A stretch of 64,000 nt of DNA from an uncultured Polaribacter sp. (GTDB lineage: Bacteria > Bacteroidota > Bacteroidia > Flavobacteriales > Flavobacteriaceae). Every line of letters starts with the position of its first letter. Position 1 is the first letter of the stretch. The DNA is taken from assembly GCF_947496195.1 (NCBI RefSeq), contig NZ_CANMBY010000001.1, positions 62,001 to 126,000 on the forward strand. The letters run 5' to 3'. Under the pieces are notes generated by a model. That model saw only the letters and a list, made by a program, of their open reading frames with translations, was not told the DNA's origin and did not search any database. Positions 33,269 through 42,220 of the stretch are shown one piece after another. The translations under genes were made by a program, and so were the position numbers.

Positions 33269-33964
33269 TTAATTTGTTACTTCTCTAAACAAAGTCTCTA
33301 AGCTTTTATTTGTTGATTTTAACTGATTCATATCAGTCTTAAAAACAATATTGCCTTTATTTAGTATAATTACTTTATCTGCAACTGCTTCTACTTCTTG
33401 CATAATATGTGTAGAAAAAAGCACTGTTTTTTCTTTACCTAATTCTTTAATTAAAGTCCTAATTTCTACTAATTGATTTGGATCTAATCCTGTTGTAGGT
33501 TCATCTAAAATTAAAACAGTTGGATTATGTAATATAGCTGCAGCTAACCCTACTCTTTGTTGATATCCTTTAGACAATTGATGTATTTTTTTATGAGCCT
33601 CTAGTGATAAACCAACTTTATCTATACACGCTTCTATTTTTGTTTTATCAACTTTAAAAATAGCCGCCTGAAAATGTAAATATTCTCTAACATACATATC
33701 TGCATACAGAGGATTATGCTCAGGCAAGTAACCAATATTTTTCTGAGCTTCTAAAGCAGAAGTTAAAACGTCTATTTCATCAACTAAAACCTCTCCAGAA
33801 TTTGGTTTTATAAAGCCTGTTAATATCTTCATCATCGTAGATTTACCTGCCCCATTTGGACCCAAAAAACCTACAATTTCACCTTTACCAACTTCAAATG
33901 AAACCTCTTTTAAAGCTTGTTGTTGATTATAAAATTTATTAACTGATGAAACTTGTATAGACAT
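33269..33964 (-). CDS. GldA-like ABC transporter ATP-binding protein
   Basis: A 231-residue ABC ATPase. Walker A is GFLGPNGAGKSTMMK, the signature motif is QLSKGYQQRVGLAAAILHN, and Walker B is VLILDEPTTGLDP followed by the switch His in FSTHIMQ. The segment GYLPEHNPLYADMYVREYL is very like GldA of gliding flavobacteria. It lacks the C-terminal extension of about 60 residues found in GldA and has no permease gene beside it, so it could be a GldA or a relative serving another exporter. Confidence 0.85.
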   Translation of the reverse strand: MSIQVSSVNKFYNQQQALKEVSFEVGKGEIVGFLGPNGAGKSTMMKILTGFIKPNSGEVLVDEIDVLTSALEAQKNIGYLPEHNPLYADMYVREYLHFQAAIFKVDKTKIEACIDKVGLSLEAHKKIHQLSKGYQQRVGLAAAILHNPTVLILDEPTTGLDPNQLVEIRTLIKELGKEKTVLFSTHIMQEVEAVADKVIILNKGNIVFKTDMNQLKSTNKSLETLFREVTN

Positions 33965-34835: not shown

Positions 34836-37604
34836 TTATAACTGATAACGTACTCTAAAAGTTATTAACCTAGGTAATATAAATGTTTCGTTAATAGAGT
34901 TTGATATATTTCCATTATTAACAGAAATTCTAGATTCTGTTCCTAAAATGTTACTTGCTTCAAATTCGTATTCCCATTTTGCATCTCTATCTTTTCTATA
35001 AGACATAGAAAAATTCCAAACGTCAAAAGAGTTTTGATGTTGACCATTTTGTCTTACTTCATTATAACTATAGTCTGAACGAATAGTTAAAGAATTCCAT
35101 AAGTAAGCATCAAAATCTATAGATGGTGCATGAGTAACTGTCTTAAAATTAAGTATTGACCCACTAGTTAAATTTAAGTTATCTTGATCAATAAAACTAG
35201 CACTATACCTTAAGCTCACATTTGGCGCTTTTATATAATTTGTTCTTATACTTGGACTTACTGAATAAACTTGAGAATTAATTTTATTAGTTGTTGGCCC
35301 AAATAACTGATATCTTTCAGAATCTGCATAACTACCTCTTAAACTTGTTCTAATTTTACCAAAAGTTTTAGTAACAGTACCTAATGCACTAAAGTTTTGG
35401 GTATCAAAAGGTAAGTTTAAATTTGTGCTTGTAGATACAACAGAACCAGGTACAAAATTAGCTATTGAAGATATTTGTTCTATAGTTTTAGTATAAGATA
35501 AACGTGCAAAAACAAAAGTGTTATTGAATAAATTAAAACTTCTATAATTTAAGTTTGCTGAATGTGCACGAGCGTTCATAATATCATTATTCCCAAAGAA
35601 AAATGAGTTAAAACTATTAGCTACAATACCTTCTGCTATTTGGTTAACATCTGTAAAATTTACGCTCTGTCTATAATCAAAAGTCATGTTTTCACTTTTC
35701 TTAAATTGAGCAATAATATTCAACTCAGGTAACACTCTTACAAATGTATCTTTAAAATAATTTGTACCATATTGTGTATTATTAGCATTGTAAGAATGTA
35801 CAGTAAAACCAGGTCTAAAAGTAAAAATACCAGACTTTACTCTATAACGCATTCCAGCATATAAATCTATAAAATTATACTCAGTGTCATTTGTATTTTG
35901 CGCATTAGCTACATTAGGAATATTCAAATTTGGGTCTAAAGAATTTCCATTATCTAATACTTGAAAAAATCTTGAATCAAAATTTTGTTGACTTAAAATT
36001 GTACCTCCAACAAAATTTAAGTTACTCTTGTCATTTAAAATATAATAGTAATCTAATTTCGCATCTAATTGATTCGATTTTACTCTTCTATTTTGATCTA
36101 ATCTATAAAACTGTTGAGATTTATTTAAACCTAAAACATCTGCTACATCATCAAAACCATCTACATTATTGTTTGGGTCTGTATCTGCATTTTCTATAGA
36201 CGCCATATAAAAAGGGTCTTCATCTTGCATTGCATGTTGCATCTCTAGTGCAAAAATACTTTTTTCACTAGCTGTGTAGAAATAACTTAAGTTTTGAGTA
36301 ATGGTAAAAGGTGTTGCATTTTCATTTTCTGTAATTGGTGTATTGCTACCAATAACTTGAGAAAAACCAACATCATTTCTAAACTCGTTTGTAAAACGAC
36401 CATTTAAATCGTAGTTTAATTGGTTGTCTACATTCTTCTTATAAATTGCTTTAAAGTTTAATAACCCAGAATTACTGGTTTGGTCTGTAGTATTATCAGT
36501 AATATCGTCAGGAATACTTGGATCATTATAATCAACAATGTTACGATTTCTTTGTCCATTAGAATTACCAGACCAAATTAAATATCCACTTAAATCTAAT
36601 TTTTTATTTGGTGAGTAGCTAAAGTTTAAAGCTGTTAATTTTGTTTCAATTCGGTTTGCATTTCTTGCAGTTGCTGTTAAAAATCCAATACCTGCACTTG
36701 CTAAACTAATATTTGTTCCATTAGATGGACTTTGACTTCTAAAACCACCTCTTAAACCTCTTACATCTCTTCTATCTAAAACAGCTTCTCCAATATTATT
36801 AATATCACCTATAATATTTAAAGTATATTTTGGAGTGTAATAAAATAATTTTGGCTGAAAAAGGTATAATTCATCACTAGGTGAAAAACCACCTCCTGCA
36901 TAAACATCTCCAAACCAAAAATTCTTTTTACCTTCTTTTAATTTAATGTTTATAGCAACTCTGTCTTGATTATCTTGTACACCTCTTAACTGGTTTACAT
37001 CTGCAAAGTTTCTTAAAACTTGAATTTTATCTACAGCATTAGAAGGTATGTTTTTAGATGCCAGTTTTGTATCTCCACTAAAAAACTCTTTACCATCAAC
37101 TGTAATTTTTTCTACAGCTTTACCTTCTACTTCTATTTGGCCAGCATCGTTAATTTCTACTCCTGGTAATTTTTTTAGTACGTCTTCTAGTTTACGTTCT
37201 GTTCCATTTTTAAAGGAGTCTGCATTATATATAATTGTATCTCCTTTAACAGTAACAGGCATTTTAGAAACTATATTAATACCATCTAACATGTTGTCTT
37301 CGTACATGGTATAGTTTTTTGAAATATTAGTAGTGCCTGTTTTAATAAACTCACTAATTTCTTTAAAACCTATGTAACTTATTTTTACATTATATACCTT
37401 GTTTTCATCTAAATCTAATTTAAAATTACCTTTAGCATCTGTAAAACCAAATGAGCTAATTTTTTTAGCAACAGTATCTAAAGCGATTACATTTGCCATT
37501 TCTAGTGGTGCACCTATAGAATCTTTTACAACCCCTGTAAGTTTAATTTGAGCACTAGTTACTAATGACACCATAAAGATGGTGATAAGTAATATTTTTT
37601 TCAT
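34836..37604 (-). CDS. Outer-membrane beta-barrel protein with CarboxypepD-regulatory-like N-domain
   Basis: A 922-residue outer-membrane protein. A signal peptide (MKKILLITIFMVSLVTSA) is followed by a carboxypeptidase-regulatory-like beta-sandwich (IKLTGVVKDSIGAPLEMANV), then a plug-like region (GTERKLEDVLKKLPGVEIND), and a long barrel with many Asn-rich loops, ending in TFRVRYQL with a terminal hydrophobic residue. This is the OMP_b-brl_3 / TonB-receptor-like class. No SusD partner is present. It follows two GLPGLI genes, a pairing that recurs in Bacteroidota. Substrate unknown; a TonB box is not evident to me. Confidence 0.88.
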   Translation of the reverse strand: MKKILLITIFMVSLVTSAQIKLTGVVKDSIGAPLEMANVIALDTVAKKISSFGFTDAKGNFKLDLDENKVYNVKISYIGFKEISEFIKTGTTNISKNYTMYEDNMLDGINIVSKMPVTVKGDTIIYNADSFKNGTERKLEDVLKKLPGVEINDAGQIEVEGKAVEKITVDGKEFFSGDTKLASKNIPSNAVDKIQVLRNFADVNQLRGVQDNQDRVAINIKLKEGKKNFWFGDVYAGGGFSPSDELYLFQPKLFYYTPKYTLNIIGDINNIGEAVLDRRDVRGLRGGFRSQSPSNGTNISLASAGIGFLTATARNANRIETKLTALNFSYSPNKKLDLSGYLIWSGNSNGQRNRNIVDYNDPSIPDDITDNTTDQTSNSGLLNFKAIYKKNVDNQLNYDLNGRFTNEFRNDVGFSQVIGSNTPITENENATPFTITQNLSYFYTASEKSIFALEMQHAMQDEDPFYMASIENADTDPNNNVDGFDDVADVLGLNKSQQFYRLDQNRRVKSNQLDAKLDYYYILNDKSNLNFVGGTILSQQNFDSRFFQVLDNGNSLDPNLNIPNVANAQNTNDTEYNFIDLYAGMRYRVKSGIFTFRPGFTVHSYNANNTQYGTNYFKDTFVRVLPELNIIAQFKKSENMTFDYRQSVNFTDVNQIAEGIVANSFNSFFFGNNDIMNARAHSANLNYRSFNLFNNTFVFARLSYTKTIEQISSIANFVPGSVVSTSTNLNLPFDTQNFSALGTVTKTFGKIRTSLRGSYADSERYQLFGPTTNKINSQVYSVSPSIRTNYIKAPNVSLRYSASFIDQDNLNLTSGSILNFKTVTHAPSIDFDAYLWNSLTIRSDYSYNEVRQNGQHQNSFDVWNFSMSYRKDRDAKWEYEFEASNILGTESRISVNNGNISNSINETFILPRLITFRVRYQL

Positions 37605-37645
37605 GAATAATTTATTTGATTAGTTTTTTTGTTTGGGTAATCTTA

Positions 37646-38512
37646 TTAGAATCTTCCTCTACCTCCTCTACCTCTACCTCTAAAATTTTGGCGCATTTCC
37701 TCCATTTTTTGAGTGATAGTCTTAGTATATTTTTCTCTTTTAATTTTTTCTCCTTTAGTTGGAGCTTCTATTTCGATTTTTTCAGAAGGATTTAAAACAA
37801 GTTCTGTACATAAAACAGTTGTTCTGCCTGAATTAACCTCTAAGATTAAACCTGGTAATCCCCAATATTCTCCAGGACCATTACTAATTGGAATTTGTGG
37901 AGTATACCAAGCTGTAACTTCAATTTGTTTTGGCACTTCTATTTCATCAGAAATTTTAGTAACGTTACTCGAATCTTTTTTAGATTCATCTTTTTTGTTA
38001 TCGTTATTTCTTCTTCTTCTCATGTTAGTCCAGTCTAAAGGATTAACATCTTTCATCATAGTTGCTTTATAACAAGTGTAGTTTCCAATTTTTTTAGTTT
38101 CTGTAGACATCTCCCATTTTGGTTGATCCATTTCATCAGAAACTAAAAAGTTTTTACCAAAAAACTCAGTAGATTCTAAGGCTACTTTATCTTTAGTATT
38201 TTTATATTGTGTTCCACTGCCACCAAAACCACCAAATCTAAATCCTCCTCCAGCACCAGGTGCTTCTAATTTTTCATCTTCTTTGTATACAGATTCGTTT
38301 TTTGTGAATGTTAAAGTGTATGTTTTTTCTAACATGTTTTTCATTCTTGCAGCAATTTGCTTTTTTTGAGCTTCAGACATTTGTCCATTTCTTCCCCAAG
38401 AACTCATATCTACTGTTGTTTTAGACATGTAAGTTGCTTTACCAGTAATTTCTTTTTGTGAAAAAGTTGTAATAGATACTGCTAAAAACAGTAGTGTTAA
38501 AAGGTTTTTCAT
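37646..38512 (-). CDS. GLPGLI family protein 1, with Arg-Gly tail
   Basis: A 288-residue exported protein (signal MKNLLTLLFLAVSITTFSQ) of the GLPGLI family. The naming motif is at residues 218-223 in EYWGLPGLILEVN, preceded by VTAWYTPQIPISNGPG. KWEMSTETKKIGNYTCYKA (132-150) is shared with the second copy downstream of it. A Gly-rich loop covers residues 86-100. The tail (278-288, RGRGRGGRGRF) is an Arg-Gly repeat, unusual for a periplasmic protein. It has its own -7 element and lies 41 bp before the barrel gene. Biochemical role of the family is unknown. Confidence 0.92.
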   Translation of the reverse strand: MKNLLTLLFLAVSITTFSQKEITGKATYMSKTTVDMSSWGRNGQMSEAQKKQIAARMKNMLEKTYTLTFTKNESVYKEDEKLEAPGAGGGFRFGGFGGSGTQYKNTKDKVALESTEFFGKNFLVSDEMDQPKWEMSTETKKIGNYTCYKATMMKDVNPLDWTNMRRRRNNDNKKDESKKDSSNVTKISDEIEVPKQIEVTAWYTPQIPISNGPGEYWGLPGLILEVNSGRTTVLCTELVLNPSEKIEIEAPTKGEKIKREKYTKTITQKMEEMRQNFRGRGRGGRGRF

Positions 38513-38534
38513 TTTGTAGTGTTTAATTTTTTAT

Positions 38535-38542
38535 CAAAAGTA
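38535..38542 (-). promoter_or_regulatory. Promoter -7 element of GLPGLI gene 1 and barrel gene
   Basis: TACTTTTG on the minus strand, an exact TAnnTTTG match, 22 bp before the ATG. The 113-bp gap between the two GLPGLI genes thus holds an internal promoter, so the barrel gene may be expressed from here as well as from the operon promoter. Confidence 0.5.
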
Positions 38543-38625
38543 CTTTTAATTTATAGGGGTAAGACTTAAAAAAAACTTAAAAGTTTAATCTTATCAAATA
38601 AAAATAAAACAGCTTTAACAAAATT

Positions 38626-39465
38626 TTAACCTCCTATTTTTATATTGATTCCATTACCCATATCTACTCCATTTCTACTTTTAAAACGCTCCATCATCTC
38701 TTTAGATTTTTTTCTGCTAATTTCATCATATTCTGTTTGGTTCACTACAGTTCCTTTTTCAGGTTCATTTATTTTTATTTTATCTGAAGGATTTAAAACA
38801 ATTTCTGTGCATACAATAGTGGTTGTACCATCATTTATTTCTAATATTAAACCAGGTAATCCTTGATAATCATCTGGACCATTACTTACAGGTATTTGAG
38901 GTGTATACCAAGCAGTAGTTGTTACAGATACAGTTTCTTTTACTTCTTTAGAATCCCCATTAACTATGCTCATTTTTACATTTTCTACATCTCTTGTAAA
39001 TGAAGCTTTATAGCAAGTATAATTACCTATGTTTTTAGTTTCTGAAGACATTTCCCATTTGTAAGTAGGTAAAGAATCTTTTACAAGAAAACGCTTACTC
39101 ATAATTTCTGTTTGGTTTGTAAACCTGTCTTCTTTAATGTTTTTGTAATAAATACTACCTTCTCCAGAACCACCAAAAGACATTACCATAACATTTGCAC
39201 CTCCAACATTTGGTTTTGGAGCTTTTAATTTTACATCTTGCTTATACGTAGATGTATATTTATCAAAGTTTAAAATGAATGTTTTTTGATTCATTTTTTG
39301 AAATCTTGCTTGTAATTGTTCTTTTTGCTGATCTGTTAATTTTGAATCACCACCAATTTTAAAGTTAGATTTTCTACTAGTTTTATAAATTGCTTTACCT
39401 GTAAAATCTTGTGCATTTATAGAAAATGATAAGACTAAAGTTAAAAATGTAATAATAGTTTTCAT
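38626..39465 (-). CDS. GLPGLI family protein 2
   Basis: A 279-residue exported protein (signal MKTIITFLTLVLSFSINAQ), paralogous to the neighbouring GLPGLI protein. Motif at residues 202-207 in YQGLPGLILEIN, with TTAWYTPQIPVSNGPD before it and KWEMSSETKNIGNYTCYKA at 136-154. It also has a Gly-containing loop (VMVMSFGGSGEG) where the paralogue has a Gly-rich one, but lacks the Arg-Gly tail. It begins 3 bp after the small secreted protein gene, so both share the promoter facing the two-component system. Confidence 0.92.
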   Translation of the reverse strand: MKTIITFLTLVLSFSINAQDFTGKAIYKTSRKSNFKIGGDSKLTDQQKEQLQARFQKMNQKTFILNFDKYTSTYKQDVKLKAPKPNVGGANVMVMSFGGSGEGSIYYKNIKEDRFTNQTEIMSKRFLVKDSLPTYKWEMSSETKNIGNYTCYKASFTRDVENVKMSIVNGDSKEVKETVSVTTTAWYTPQIPVSNGPDDYQGLPGLILEINDGTTTIVCTEIVLNPSDKIKINEPEKGTVVNQTEYDEISRKKSKEMMERFKSRNGVDMGNGINIKIGG

Positions 39466-39468
39466 GAT

Positions 39469-39828
39469 TTAGTTTTTGTATTTATTAGATATTTTTATGA
39501 TTGATTTTACGCCTTTTTTAGCTCTAAAAATTAAAGAATCTATATCTTTTGTTTGTCCAGATACTTTAATTGAACTTTTAATTTTGTATTTAGAATTTGG
39601 ATAATTTAATGCAAAGCTCATTTCAATTTTTTCTGAACCCTTATTTGTATTAAAAACTTCTTTTATTTCTCTCCAATCTATACTCTGTAATTCTTTTGCA
39701 CTATTAACAGCGTAAGAAACAGCTGTAATTTTTACTTCTGACTTTTCATTTATTATTGATAAGTTATTTTTTTGACTGTAAGCAAAAAAAGAAAAACTTA
39801 ATAATAGAATTAATAAAATTACTTTCAT
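39469..39828 (-). CDS. Small exported protein, unknown
   Basis: A 119-residue protein starting at the ATG at 39828 (MKVILLILLLSFSFFAYS is a signal peptide). A longer frame would need a GTG start and put a polar stretch before the signal. The mature part is basic, with LQSIDWREIKEVFN and two likely beta-hairpins, ending in SIIKISNKYKN. No family recognised. First gene of the minus-strand group small protein-GLPGLI-GLPGLI-barrel, divergent from the sensor kinase gene. Confidence 0.7.
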   Translation of the reverse strand: MKVILLILLLSFSFFAYSQKNNLSIINEKSEVKITAVSYAVNSAKELQSIDWREIKEVFNTNKGSEKIEMSFALNYPNSKYKIKSSIKVSGQTKDIDSLIFRAKKGVKSIIKISNKYKN

Positions 39829-39854
39829 AATATAGGTTTTATAGTTATACACTA

Positions 39855-39862
39855 CAAAGATG
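39855..39862 (-). promoter_or_regulatory. Near-consensus -7 element facing the GLPGLI operon
   Basis: On the minus strand this reads CATCTTTG, one base from TAnnTTTG. It predicts a transcript start near 39851, 23 bases before the ATG at 39828. Confidence 0.4.
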
Positions 39863-39884
39863 CTTATGAATTATATATTTTATA

Positions 39885-39914
39885 GTTAATGAATGTTAAC
39901 GAGTGTTAACCAGC
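39885..39914. promoter_or_regulatory. Three 10-bp tandem repeats between divergent operons, candidate response-regulator site
   Basis: GTTAATGAAT, GTTAACGAGT and GTTAACCAGC follow each other with an exact 10-bp period, one DNA helical turn. OmpR/PhoB-type regulators bind direct repeats of 10-11 bp. The centre of the array is about 49 bp from the predicted transcript start on both sides. The OmpR-type regulator encoded downstream is the obvious candidate to bind here. Confidence 0.6.
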
Positions 39915-39936
39915 TGTTTTTCTATTTTTTACATCC

Positions 39937-39944
39937 TATATTTG
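39937..39944 (+). promoter_or_regulatory. Promoter -7 element of the two-component operon, possibly leaderless
   Basis: TATATTTG, an exact consensus match, ends 4 bases before the ATG at 39949. The transcript would start at or next to the start codon. Confidence 0.6.
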
Positions 39945-39948
39945 CTAT

Positions 39949-41550
39949 ATGAACACCAAAAAATACACTTGGCTTTTCTATTTTATTACACTTACAATTA
40001 TTACAACGATTGGAGTGCAGTTCTATTGGAATTACAAAAACTACGAAGAAAATAAACAAAGGGTTGCCAACGAAATTCAATTAAGTTTAGACAATGCAGT
40101 AGAAGAATATTATTCTTCTTTAGCGAAAAGTAATTTTATTACTATTATAGGTAAAAACACTACAGATAGTAAAAAACTTAAAATTTTTGATGCTATTAGT
40201 AATGACAGTAATAAACTAAAAAAGAGTAATAAGAAATTTGGCAGTAAAATCACTTTAAATAGTATAAAAATTACTACAGATGAAAACTATTCAAAAGAAA
40301 AGATTGACTCTATTTTACTAACCACTAAAGATTTTGTGACCGAGTTTAATTTAAAAGAAGATTCAACAAAATCTAAATCATTTTTAGACACCTATAAACC
40401 ACAAACACAATTTAAAGATTCTATTAACGGCCTTCATATTGATAACCATGGAAATAAATCTGAGATTAAATATTTTAAAGGTAAAGCTGCTGCAGACAGT
40501 TTAAAACTACTTACCAATTTAAAACCCATTTTTATTTCATTTTTAGACCAATCTATTGAATATAAAAAACTAGATTCTTTAATTGAAAACCAACTAAACA
40601 AAAAGGGTATAGATTTAAAAACTAGTTTTCATCACATAAAAAATGATTCTATTCTTAAAAAAACAAAAGACACTACTTTAATATCAGATCTTTTTTCTGT
40701 GGATTCTAAATCTACCTATTTAAAAAAAGGAGAAGCCTTTAAATTGTACTATGCTAATACTAATTTCGAAGCTCTAAAAAGAGGGTTTGGAGGCATTTTA
40801 TTATCTTTTATTTTAGCATTATTAATTGTTTCTTGTTTGTTTTATTTATTAAAAATCATCAAAGAACAAAAAGAGCTTTCTATAATTAAAAATGATTTAA
40901 TTAGTAATATTACTCACGAATTTAAAACCCCAATAGCTACAGTTTCTACTGCTATAGAAGCCATAGAGAATTTTAATGTATTAGATGATAAAGAAAAGAC
41001 TCAAAAATATTTATCATTATCATCTATTCAGTTAAAAAAATTACATCAAATGGTAGAGAAACTTTTAGAAACAGCTACTCTTGATAGTGAACAATTATTA
41101 TTAAAAAAAGAAACAATAGATATTACAGAAGTAGTTCAAAAAATAGTAACTAAACACCAGCTACTAGCAAATAATAAAACACTTAATTTTTCTACCAATC
41201 TAAAACCTATATACATAAATGTTGATGCTTTTCATTTCGAAAATGTAGTTTCTAATTTAATAGATAATGCTGTTAAATATGGAGGAGATACAATAGAAAT
41301 AAATATAAATTCAATTTTAAACAATACAGAAATTACAGTTGCAGATAATGGAAATGGAGTAGAAAAAAATCAACAAGAAAAGATTTTTGATAAATTTTAC
41401 AGGGTGCCAAAAGGTAATACACATAATGTTAAAGGTTTTGGTATTGGCTTATATTATTGTAAAAAAATTATTGAAAAACATTTTGGAACTATAAGTTTAG
41501 TTTCAGATAAAAACAACACCATTTTTAAAATAAATATTCCAAATGAGTAA
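39949..41550 (+). CDS. Sensor histidine kinase
   Basis: A 533-residue membrane kinase. Helix 1 is about residues 8-27 and helix 2 is 281-300, which places a large sensor region (28-279) in the periplasm; it is Lys- and Ser-rich and I do not recognise its fold. The HisKA box has His323 in NITHEFKTPIATV, and the ATP-binding domain shows NLIDNAVKYGG, VADNGNGVE and GFGIGLYYCKKII. It overlaps the response regulator gene by 8 bp, so they form a pair. It is divergent from the GLPGLI/barrel genes, and may sense envelope conditions. Confidence 0.93.
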   Translation: MNTKKYTWLFYFITLTIITTIGVQFYWNYKNYEENKQRVANEIQLSLDNAVEEYYSSLAKSNFITIIGKNTTDSKKLKIFDAISNDSNKLKKSNKKFGSKITLNSIKITTDENYSKEKIDSILLTTKDFVTEFNLKEDSTKSKSFLDTYKPQTQFKDSINGLHIDNHGNKSEIKYFKGKAAADSLKLLTNLKPIFISFLDQSIEYKKLDSLIENQLNKKGIDLKTSFHHIKNDSILKKTKDTTLISDLFSVDSKSTYLKKGEAFKLYYANTNFEALKRGFGGILLSFILALLIVSCLFYLLKIIKEQKELSIIKNDLISNITHEFKTPIATVSTAIEAIENFNVLDDKEKTQKYLSLSSIQLKKLHQMVEKLLETATLDSEQLLLKKETIDITEVVQKIVTKHQLLANNKTLNFSTNLKPIYINVDAFHFENVVSNLIDNAVKYGGDTIEININSILNNTEITVADNGNGVEKNQQEKIFDKFYRVPKGNTHNVKGFGIGLYYCKKIIEKHFGTISLVSDKNNTIFKINIPNE

Positions 41551-42220
41551 AGTTAAAGTTCTATTAGCAGAAGATGAAGCTAGCTTAGGAATGATTGTTA
41601 AAGAAAGCTTAGAAACAAGAGATTTTTTAGTTTTTTTAGCTGAAGATGGAGAGCAAGCAATCGAGATTTACAAAAAAGAACAACCAGATATTTTAGTGTT
41701 AGATGTAATGATGCCTAAAAAAGATGGATTCTCTGTTGCAGAAGATATAAGAAAAGAAAACAAAAAAATTCCCATAATTTTTTTAACAGCCAAATCGCAA
41801 ACAAGTGATGTTTTAGAAGGTTTTCATAAAGGAGGAAATGACTACTTAAAAAAACCCTTTTCTATGGAGGAATTAATTGTTAGAATTAAAGCTTTATTAG
41901 ATAGAATAGAAATTAAAAGTAATGTAGATCACATAAATATTGGAAAATATATTTTCAATTTAACCAAACAAACTCTAGAAATAGATAATAATTTAGAGCA
42001 ATTAACTCATAGAGAAGCAGAATTGTTATTTTATCTATTTGAGAAAAAAAATGAAATCTTAGATAGATCTTTTATCCTTAATAAACTTTGGGGTAATGAT
42101 GATTTTTTTAATGCTAGAAGTATGGATGTCTTTATAAGTAAATTACGTAAAAAATTAAAAAAAGACGAAACCATACAAATACTTAATGTTAGAGGTTTTG
42201 GATATAAATTAATCTGTTAA
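41543..42220 (+). CDS. OmpR/PhoB-family response regulator
   Basis: A 225-residue two-domain regulator. The receiver domain has the acidic pocket at Asp11/Glu12, the phosphorylation site Asp54 in LVLDVMMPKKDG, and Lys104 in YLKKPF. The C-terminal winged helix has LTHREAELLFYLFEKKNEIL and VRGFGYKL. It overlaps the kinase gene by 8 bp. The 10-bp tandem repeats upstream of the kinase are a candidate binding site. Confidence 0.95.
   Translation: MSKVKVLLAEDEASLGMIVKESLETRDFLVFLAEDGEQAIEIYKKEQPDILVLDVMMPKKDGFSVAEDIRKENKKIPIIFLTAKSQTSDVLEGFHKGGNDYLKKPFSMEELIVRIKALLDRIEIKSNVDHINIGKYIFNLTKQTLEIDNNLEQLTHREAELLFYLFEKKNEILDRSFILNKLWGNDDFFNARSMDVFISKLRKKLKKDETIQILNVRGFGYKLIC

Follow-up and report, generated by a model that had tools for sequence, protein, structure and literature searches.

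The window analysed here is a 64-kb stretch of Polaribacter DNA in which an array of three short boxes separates a kinase-regulator operon from a divergent operon for a small protein, two GLPGLI proteins and a barrel. From left to right, the locus comprises the following features.

34836–37604, minus strand: outer-membrane beta-barrel protein, 922 aa (CarboxypepD_reg, OMP_b-brl_3)
37646–38512, minus strand: GLPGLI protein 2, 288 aa (TIGR01200, Porph_ging)
38626–39465, minus strand: GLPGLI protein 1, 279 aa (TIGR01200, Porph_ging)
39469–39828, minus strand: small protein, 119 aa counted from ATG, with a signal-like N-terminus (no family match)
39855–39862, minus strand: CATCTTTG, the −7 element predicted for the GLPGLI-side promoter, whose first base is off the consensus TAHHTTTG
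39885–39910, no strand assigned: three GTTAA(C) boxes in 10-bp register (starts 39885, 39895 and 39905), the proposed shared operator
39937–39944, plus strand: TATATTTG, the −7 element predicted for the kinase promoter, separated from the ATG by 4 bases (rule of PMC6847099)
39949–41550, plus strand: sensor histidine kinase, 533 aa (HisKA, HATPase_c)
41543–42220, plus strand: OmpR/PhoB-type response regulator of 225 aa that resembles RprY but scores under the RprY cut-off (Response_reg, Trans_reg_C)

Domain and family matches confirmed the gene identities given in a preliminary description for the kinase, the regulator, both GLPGLI proteins and the barrel. The kinase and regulator genes share an 8-bp overlap. 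The regulator matches PF00072 (99.8 bits) and PF00486 (70.4 bits) and so has the domains of the OmpR/PhoB type. Its best NCBIfam match is RprY (NF051850) at 271.6 bits, yet this misses the cut-off of 370, as do the matches of all 20 relatives scored; another regulator of the same genome outscores it on this model (280 vs 272 bits). In a tree with 44 inner branches, 12 of them starred, the regulator is separate from the core RprY-like rows; the places of L081, L372, L376, L080 and L122 are unsure because of their long branches. Both GLPGLI proteins are members of TIGR01200 (188.5 and 173.6 bits; cut-off 50). In the barrel, CarboxypepD_reg and OMP_b-brl_3 score above cut-off and Plug below it. 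The structure prediction for the kinase was set aside (mean pLDDT 70.5, pTM 0.43, low in the periplasmic part). Beyond the barrel gene, positions 33269–33964 encode a 231-aa GldA-like ABC ATPase (379 bits, under the GldA cut-off of 402.6), possibly shortened here, since the frames in relatives are 297 aa.

TRF detects the array as a period-10 repeat of 2.6 copies (87% matches, score 38). The repeats had been described as three 10-bp units with an exact helical period. Three boxes in 10-bp register are indeed present; the array is, however, a conserved GTTAA(C) core in that register and not three identical 10-mers, and its TRF span is 39885–39910. The exact GTTAA triple occurs once in the 64-kb window and in none of 200 first-order Markov simulated windows. 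When up to three mismatches were allowed, the window gave 10 matches, not above shuffles. Just one further exact triple exists in the whole genome, at G000:C1:1441300; a gene for a 1051-aa SusC-like TonB receptor starts 68 bp away from this triple (L083, 5002; GTTAAAAA type).

Promoter positions were predicted with the Flavobacterium johnsoniae rule, by which the −7 element occupies −12 to −5, as given in the available part of PMC6847099. Applied to TATATTTG, the rule places the predicted kinase transcription start on the A of the ATG itself (39949), and the predicted leftward start falls at about 39850. The array then spans about −64 to −39 relative to the kinase start and −60 to −35 relative to the GLPGLI-side start. 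Its centre had been put at about 49 bp from both starts, and the computed distances of 51.5 bp (kinase side) and 47.5 bp (GLPGLI side) agree with this. On the GLPGLI side, NAHHTTTG and the array are exactly 22 bp apart in 20/21 genus rows and 47/54 family rows, the window being counted in both sets, compared to 7.7% of shuffled flanks with any NAHHTTTG within 60 bp. In most rows the first base of this element is C instead of the consensus T, a departure that would fit an activator-dependent promoter and that also weakens the −7 prediction. On the kinase side, TTTG ends 4 bases before the ATG in 19/21 genus and 45/54 family rows in a loose test, and in 55 of 74 rows in a strict one. In Roseivirga an apparent GTG start of the kinase lies four bases past the −7 element. 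The kinase mRNA is thus predicted from these spacings to be leaderless. Such a conserved leader-free transcript would be unusual for the group: in the available part of PMC9723704, leaderless mRNAs make up 5.5% of those mapped in F. psychrophilum.

A search at E ≤ 1e-60 gave a regulator orthologue for 22 of the 36 genomes of the genus. Three in-register GTTAA boxes are present in all 21 readable kinase upstream regions (the window and 20 same-genus loci); in the 22nd regulator genome, G012, the array stands next to GLPGLI on a different contig. Wherever the contig extends far enough, the locus includes the barrel gene together with one divergent GLPGLI gene or two. The small protein was not found in several of the same-genus loci. 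Outside the boxes, the intergenic columns are mostly variable across the genus; the row of L075, whose upstream region is short, is off-register and accounts for a single odd letter in many columns of the alignment.

Conservation extends through the family set of 199 genomes from 198 genera. Searching them for the exact triple yields 129 matches in 74 genomes, compared to 13 for the reversed pattern; a subset of the 129 was inspected, the first 60 stretches mostly picked as canonical and more added later. The regulator (E ≤ 1e-75) occurs in 65 of the 199 genomes. Among these 65 loci, 57 have the exact triple no more than 400 bp from the kinase start, and G061 has it farther away, still in the same intergenic region. 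Three loci keep 14/15 array letters, one of them at −271, and G060 keeps 13/15, with box 1 lost. Another three, where the kinase N-terminus is missing (G073, G170, G227), are untestable; in G073 an exact array adjoins GLPGLI. The exact triple is therefore present in 58 of 62 testable family loci, and the proposal that relatives with the divergent gene order would keep the repeats has stood up in both the genus and the family. Of the 60 rows that keep 14–15 letters, 53 place the first G of the array at −64 to −66 relative to the kinase start. The consensus is approximately GTTAAC-NAGT-GTTAAC-G(A/T)GT-GTTAA(C/G), with box letters partly chosen by the search. Two loci, L178 and L189, have the regulator and the array (14–15/15 letters) without the divergent GLPGLI-barrel genes. 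Second arrays were seen within the GLPGLI-barrel operon, upstream of an additional GLPGLI gene or the barrel, in L168 (7001) and L181 (1865).

Contigs were also scanned with the site alone, using the pattern GTTAACN3TGTTAACN3TGTTAAC, which selects perfect boxes. At least 118 stretches were obtained, and 102 of the 118 matches listed have kinase and/or GLPGLI matches. Among the matches listed, the locus also occurs in Algoriphagus (Cyclobacteriaceae) and Roseivirga (Roseivirgaceae), according to the labels of the tree tool. In L236 (Chryseobacterium pennae), a perfect array is followed by TACATTTG, and the 914-bp stretch matched no gene of the locus. In G052, which belongs to another family and has a regulator of 46% identity, the boxes number six (five GTTAA, one ATTAA), again in 10-bp register; they separate the kinase gene from a divergent gene for 790 aa, in which the N-terminal half, the part scanned, has a CarboxypepD_reg match. 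At the class level, a strict pattern matched one of 247 genomes, G461, a count that tells little about looser sites, as the pattern misses the window's own array. The G461 array precedes a kinase-regulator pair, and the regulator of that pair clusters with the core RprY-like rows.

The regulator is absent from 14 of the 36 same-genus genomes, some of which are incomplete. Eight of the 14 retain a barrel orthologue (66–74% identity; partial in G019) adjoined by one or two GLPGLI genes, and seven of these eight keep the deoxynucleoside kinase gene that is normally downstream of the regulator. A site of at least 13/15 letters was found in none of the seven readable regulator-less barrel loci; L435, where the stretch stops at the GLPGLI start, was left out of this count. 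Array and regulator are thus missing jointly, and the operon stays. In L436 and L437, a 10-bp TTTAAC ladder near the expected place looks like array decay, and in the remaining loci the array may have been deleted together with the kinase. In L437, L438 and L440, the interval from GLPGLI to the deoxynucleoside kinase gene still contains short regulator matches, pointing to in-place loss of the system. The persistence of GLPGLI and barrel genes without the regulator in eight genomes, together with L178 and L189, argues against a strictly dedicated module.

In the family set, the exact triple occurs in 60/65 genomes with the regulator versus 14/134 without it, and none of these 14 carries the canonical form. 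Canonical sites away from the locus were found in 6/65 genomes with the regulator and 0/134 without (p 0.001, with a post hoc definition). At 20 loci of other RprY-type regulators, searched over as much as 4.5 kb of upstream sequence, the exact triple was not found. A few such loci show 13–14/15 letters, near the kinase start in L366, L377 and L381; these weak arrays and G461 suggest that the regulator may not be the sole array binder.

Arrays elsewhere in the genomes were surveyed for further targets. Within the window's own genome no regulon was readable from two-box sites, with 85 matches against 117 for the reversed pattern, which is background; the second exact two-box site falls within a 444-aa reading frame. 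Among 20 inspected places (19 same-genus and one in the own genome), a gene for a protein with a signal-like N-terminus adjoins the array in 10, including L350, which is the locus itself; the other places are inside genes or by other genes. Non-locus arrays of 14–15 letters adjoin genes whose products look exported: thioredoxin/AhpC-TSA type proteins (G180, G252, G013), retropepsin-like proteins (G117, G213, G180, G013, G016), a lumazine-binding protein (G011), a weakly DUF4440-like protein (G148), an unassigned protein (G140), a PNGase-N type protein (G015), an S9 peptidase (G002), HtrA (G176) and a barrel (G177). The non-local sites followed in relatives (HtrA, AhpC/TSA, retropepsin-like) are not conserved. 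HtrA was rejected as a conserved second target: none of 30 HtrA loci from relatives exceeds 12/15 letters within 300 bp upstream, and the less canonical exact array upstream of HtrA in G176 (L143) is found in one genome. AhpC/TSA loci reach 15/15 in 2 of 20 (G180 and G252, already known) and 13 in one. The retropepsin-like target was also rejected, the protein being present in 1 of 35, the genome it came from. In two genera (L116 and L124, ~7001), an array lies between a retropepsin-like gene and a regulator gene with Trans_reg_C only, the absence of a receiver domain resting on a scan of L116. The regulator probably has further exported targets in some genomes; the sequences suggest that the non-local arrays are lineage-specific extra targets, with no regulon established.

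On this comparative evidence, we consider it very likely that the array serves as operator of a two-way promoter region, through which the regulator controls the kinase and GLPGLI-barrel operons. The regulator very probably binds this operator, because the array is conserved, fixed in position and absent along with the regulator. The preliminary description held that the regulator controls both operons. In favour of this, the array is fixed relative to both promoters and is absent together with the regulator in the seven readable loci; against it, the GLPGLI-barrel operon outlives regulator and array. The same persistence speaks for a rival reading in which the array would serve only autoregulation of the kinase-regulator pair, with the neighbouring GLPGLI promoter outside its control, and the arrays kept in L178 and L189 without divergent genes point the same way. 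However, an array devoted to autoregulation needs no element at a fixed 22 bp on the GLPGLI side, and the regularity of that spacing in both the genus and the family rows makes this restricted role unlikely.

It also appears quite improbable that the main binder is some other protein, for example a core RprY-like paralogue or a further regulator. Core RprY-like regulators are similar in the C-terminal helix region, the array of G461 stands at a core-like pair, and those of L116 and L124 are beside a different regulator gene. Nevertheless, a core RprY-like paralogue is present in the regulator-less genomes G007, G008 and G010, and the array is found at none of the readable regulator-less loci; canonical non-local sites, in their post hoc definition, were likewise confined to genomes with the regulator. 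A chance repeat in AT-rich DNA would agree with the background level of two-box matches in the genome, but it is refuted by the conservation of the array, whose position is fixed across tens of genera and which the simulated windows failed to produce.

OmpR-family regulators bind boxes head to tail. If the array is the shared operator, the phosphorylated RprY-like regulator would occupy the three boxes in this manner and, bound just upstream of both promoters, would activate both. The system would thereby raise its own level and, alongside, the levels of all products of the divergent operon (small protein, both GLPGLI proteins, barrel). The GTTAAC box, being nearly palindromic, could permit binding in either direction, and the signal, at a guess, would be an envelope cue. 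The fixed geometry of array and promoters would make the locus a clean case for activation at Bacteroidota −7 promoters. Moreover, GLPGLI genes would become testable here, because the regulator, the operator and the conserved partner barrel provide a simple genetic handle.

The name GLPGLI is rare in the literature searched, which leaves most subscription journals outside, and the Pfam entry PF09697 describes GLPGLI as of unknown function. A structure predicted from 33 sequences (mean pLDDT 77) was aligned with solved structures. The best matches are the N-domains of PNGases, 7zgn (Z 15.8) and PNGF-II (Z 14.8), followed by LolA, RseB and ependymin-type proteins at Z of about 9–10; for LolA and RseB this is a modest excess over the usual best Z of the tool. 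Identity to the PNGases, LolA and RseB is 6–20%. In sequence, the window's GLPGLI proteins score 20.9 and 20.4 bits against the PNGase F-II N-domain (PF22252), below its cut-off of 27.6, although the predicted fold agrees with that domain. The single PDB match by sequence is 7zgn, with an E-value of 0.058. By analogy with these folds, GLPGLI may be a periplasmic protein of beta-sheet type that contains a pocket.

No published description of the locus was found in the literature searched, again with most subscription journals outside, so comparison is with systems that share parts of it. With RprXY it has in common its best family model, and P. gingivalis RprY binds its own promoter by EMSA in the available part of PMC3646045; the window regulator differs in scoring under the cut-off and in standing apart in the tree. 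The Cpx system offers a closer parallel in layout. According to the accessible text of PMC3158067, the CpxR consensus is GTAAA(N)4-8GTAAA and CpxR bound the divergent cpxR/cpxP region. Both cases would thus have an OmpR-type regulator and pentamer direct repeats between the regulator operon and a divergent gene for an exported protein. The likeness is one of analogous layout: the locus here is kinase-first, with an RprY-like regulator and GTTAAC boxes at a strict 10 bp, and it has GLPGLI and barrel genes where Cpx has cpxP. The proteins are not members of the Cpx families (100.5 of 486 bits for CpxA, 124.5 of 341 for CpxR). A far-reaching and rather doubtful extension is a Cpx-like envelope stress system in at least two Bacteroidota orders, in which one locus-specific three-box operator would drive a leaderless kinase mRNA and the divergent operon, and GLPGLI proteins with an RseB/LolA-like fold would serve in the periplasm as sensors or as feedback inhibitors of the kinase, besides being carriers for the barrel.

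The nearest published regulon, by motif, self-binding and GLPGLI targets, is that of the OmpR-type PhoPR system of Riemerella anatipestifer. The accessible text of PMC9603813 reports a DAP-seq motif that is best conserved at the letters TTTAACA, EMSA binding of PhoP upstream of its own operon, and 50 direct targets that include five GLPGLI genes and an outer-membrane barrel gene; in the mutant, two GLPGLI genes were up and three down. That text gives hundreds of peaks, whereas the Polaribacter genome has essentially one strong site, and in the part available it describes no triple-box locus. The present locus thus resembles what is known already in two respects: an OmpR-type regulator with probable GLPGLI targets, recalling Riemerella, and a divergent logic like that of cpxR/cpxP.
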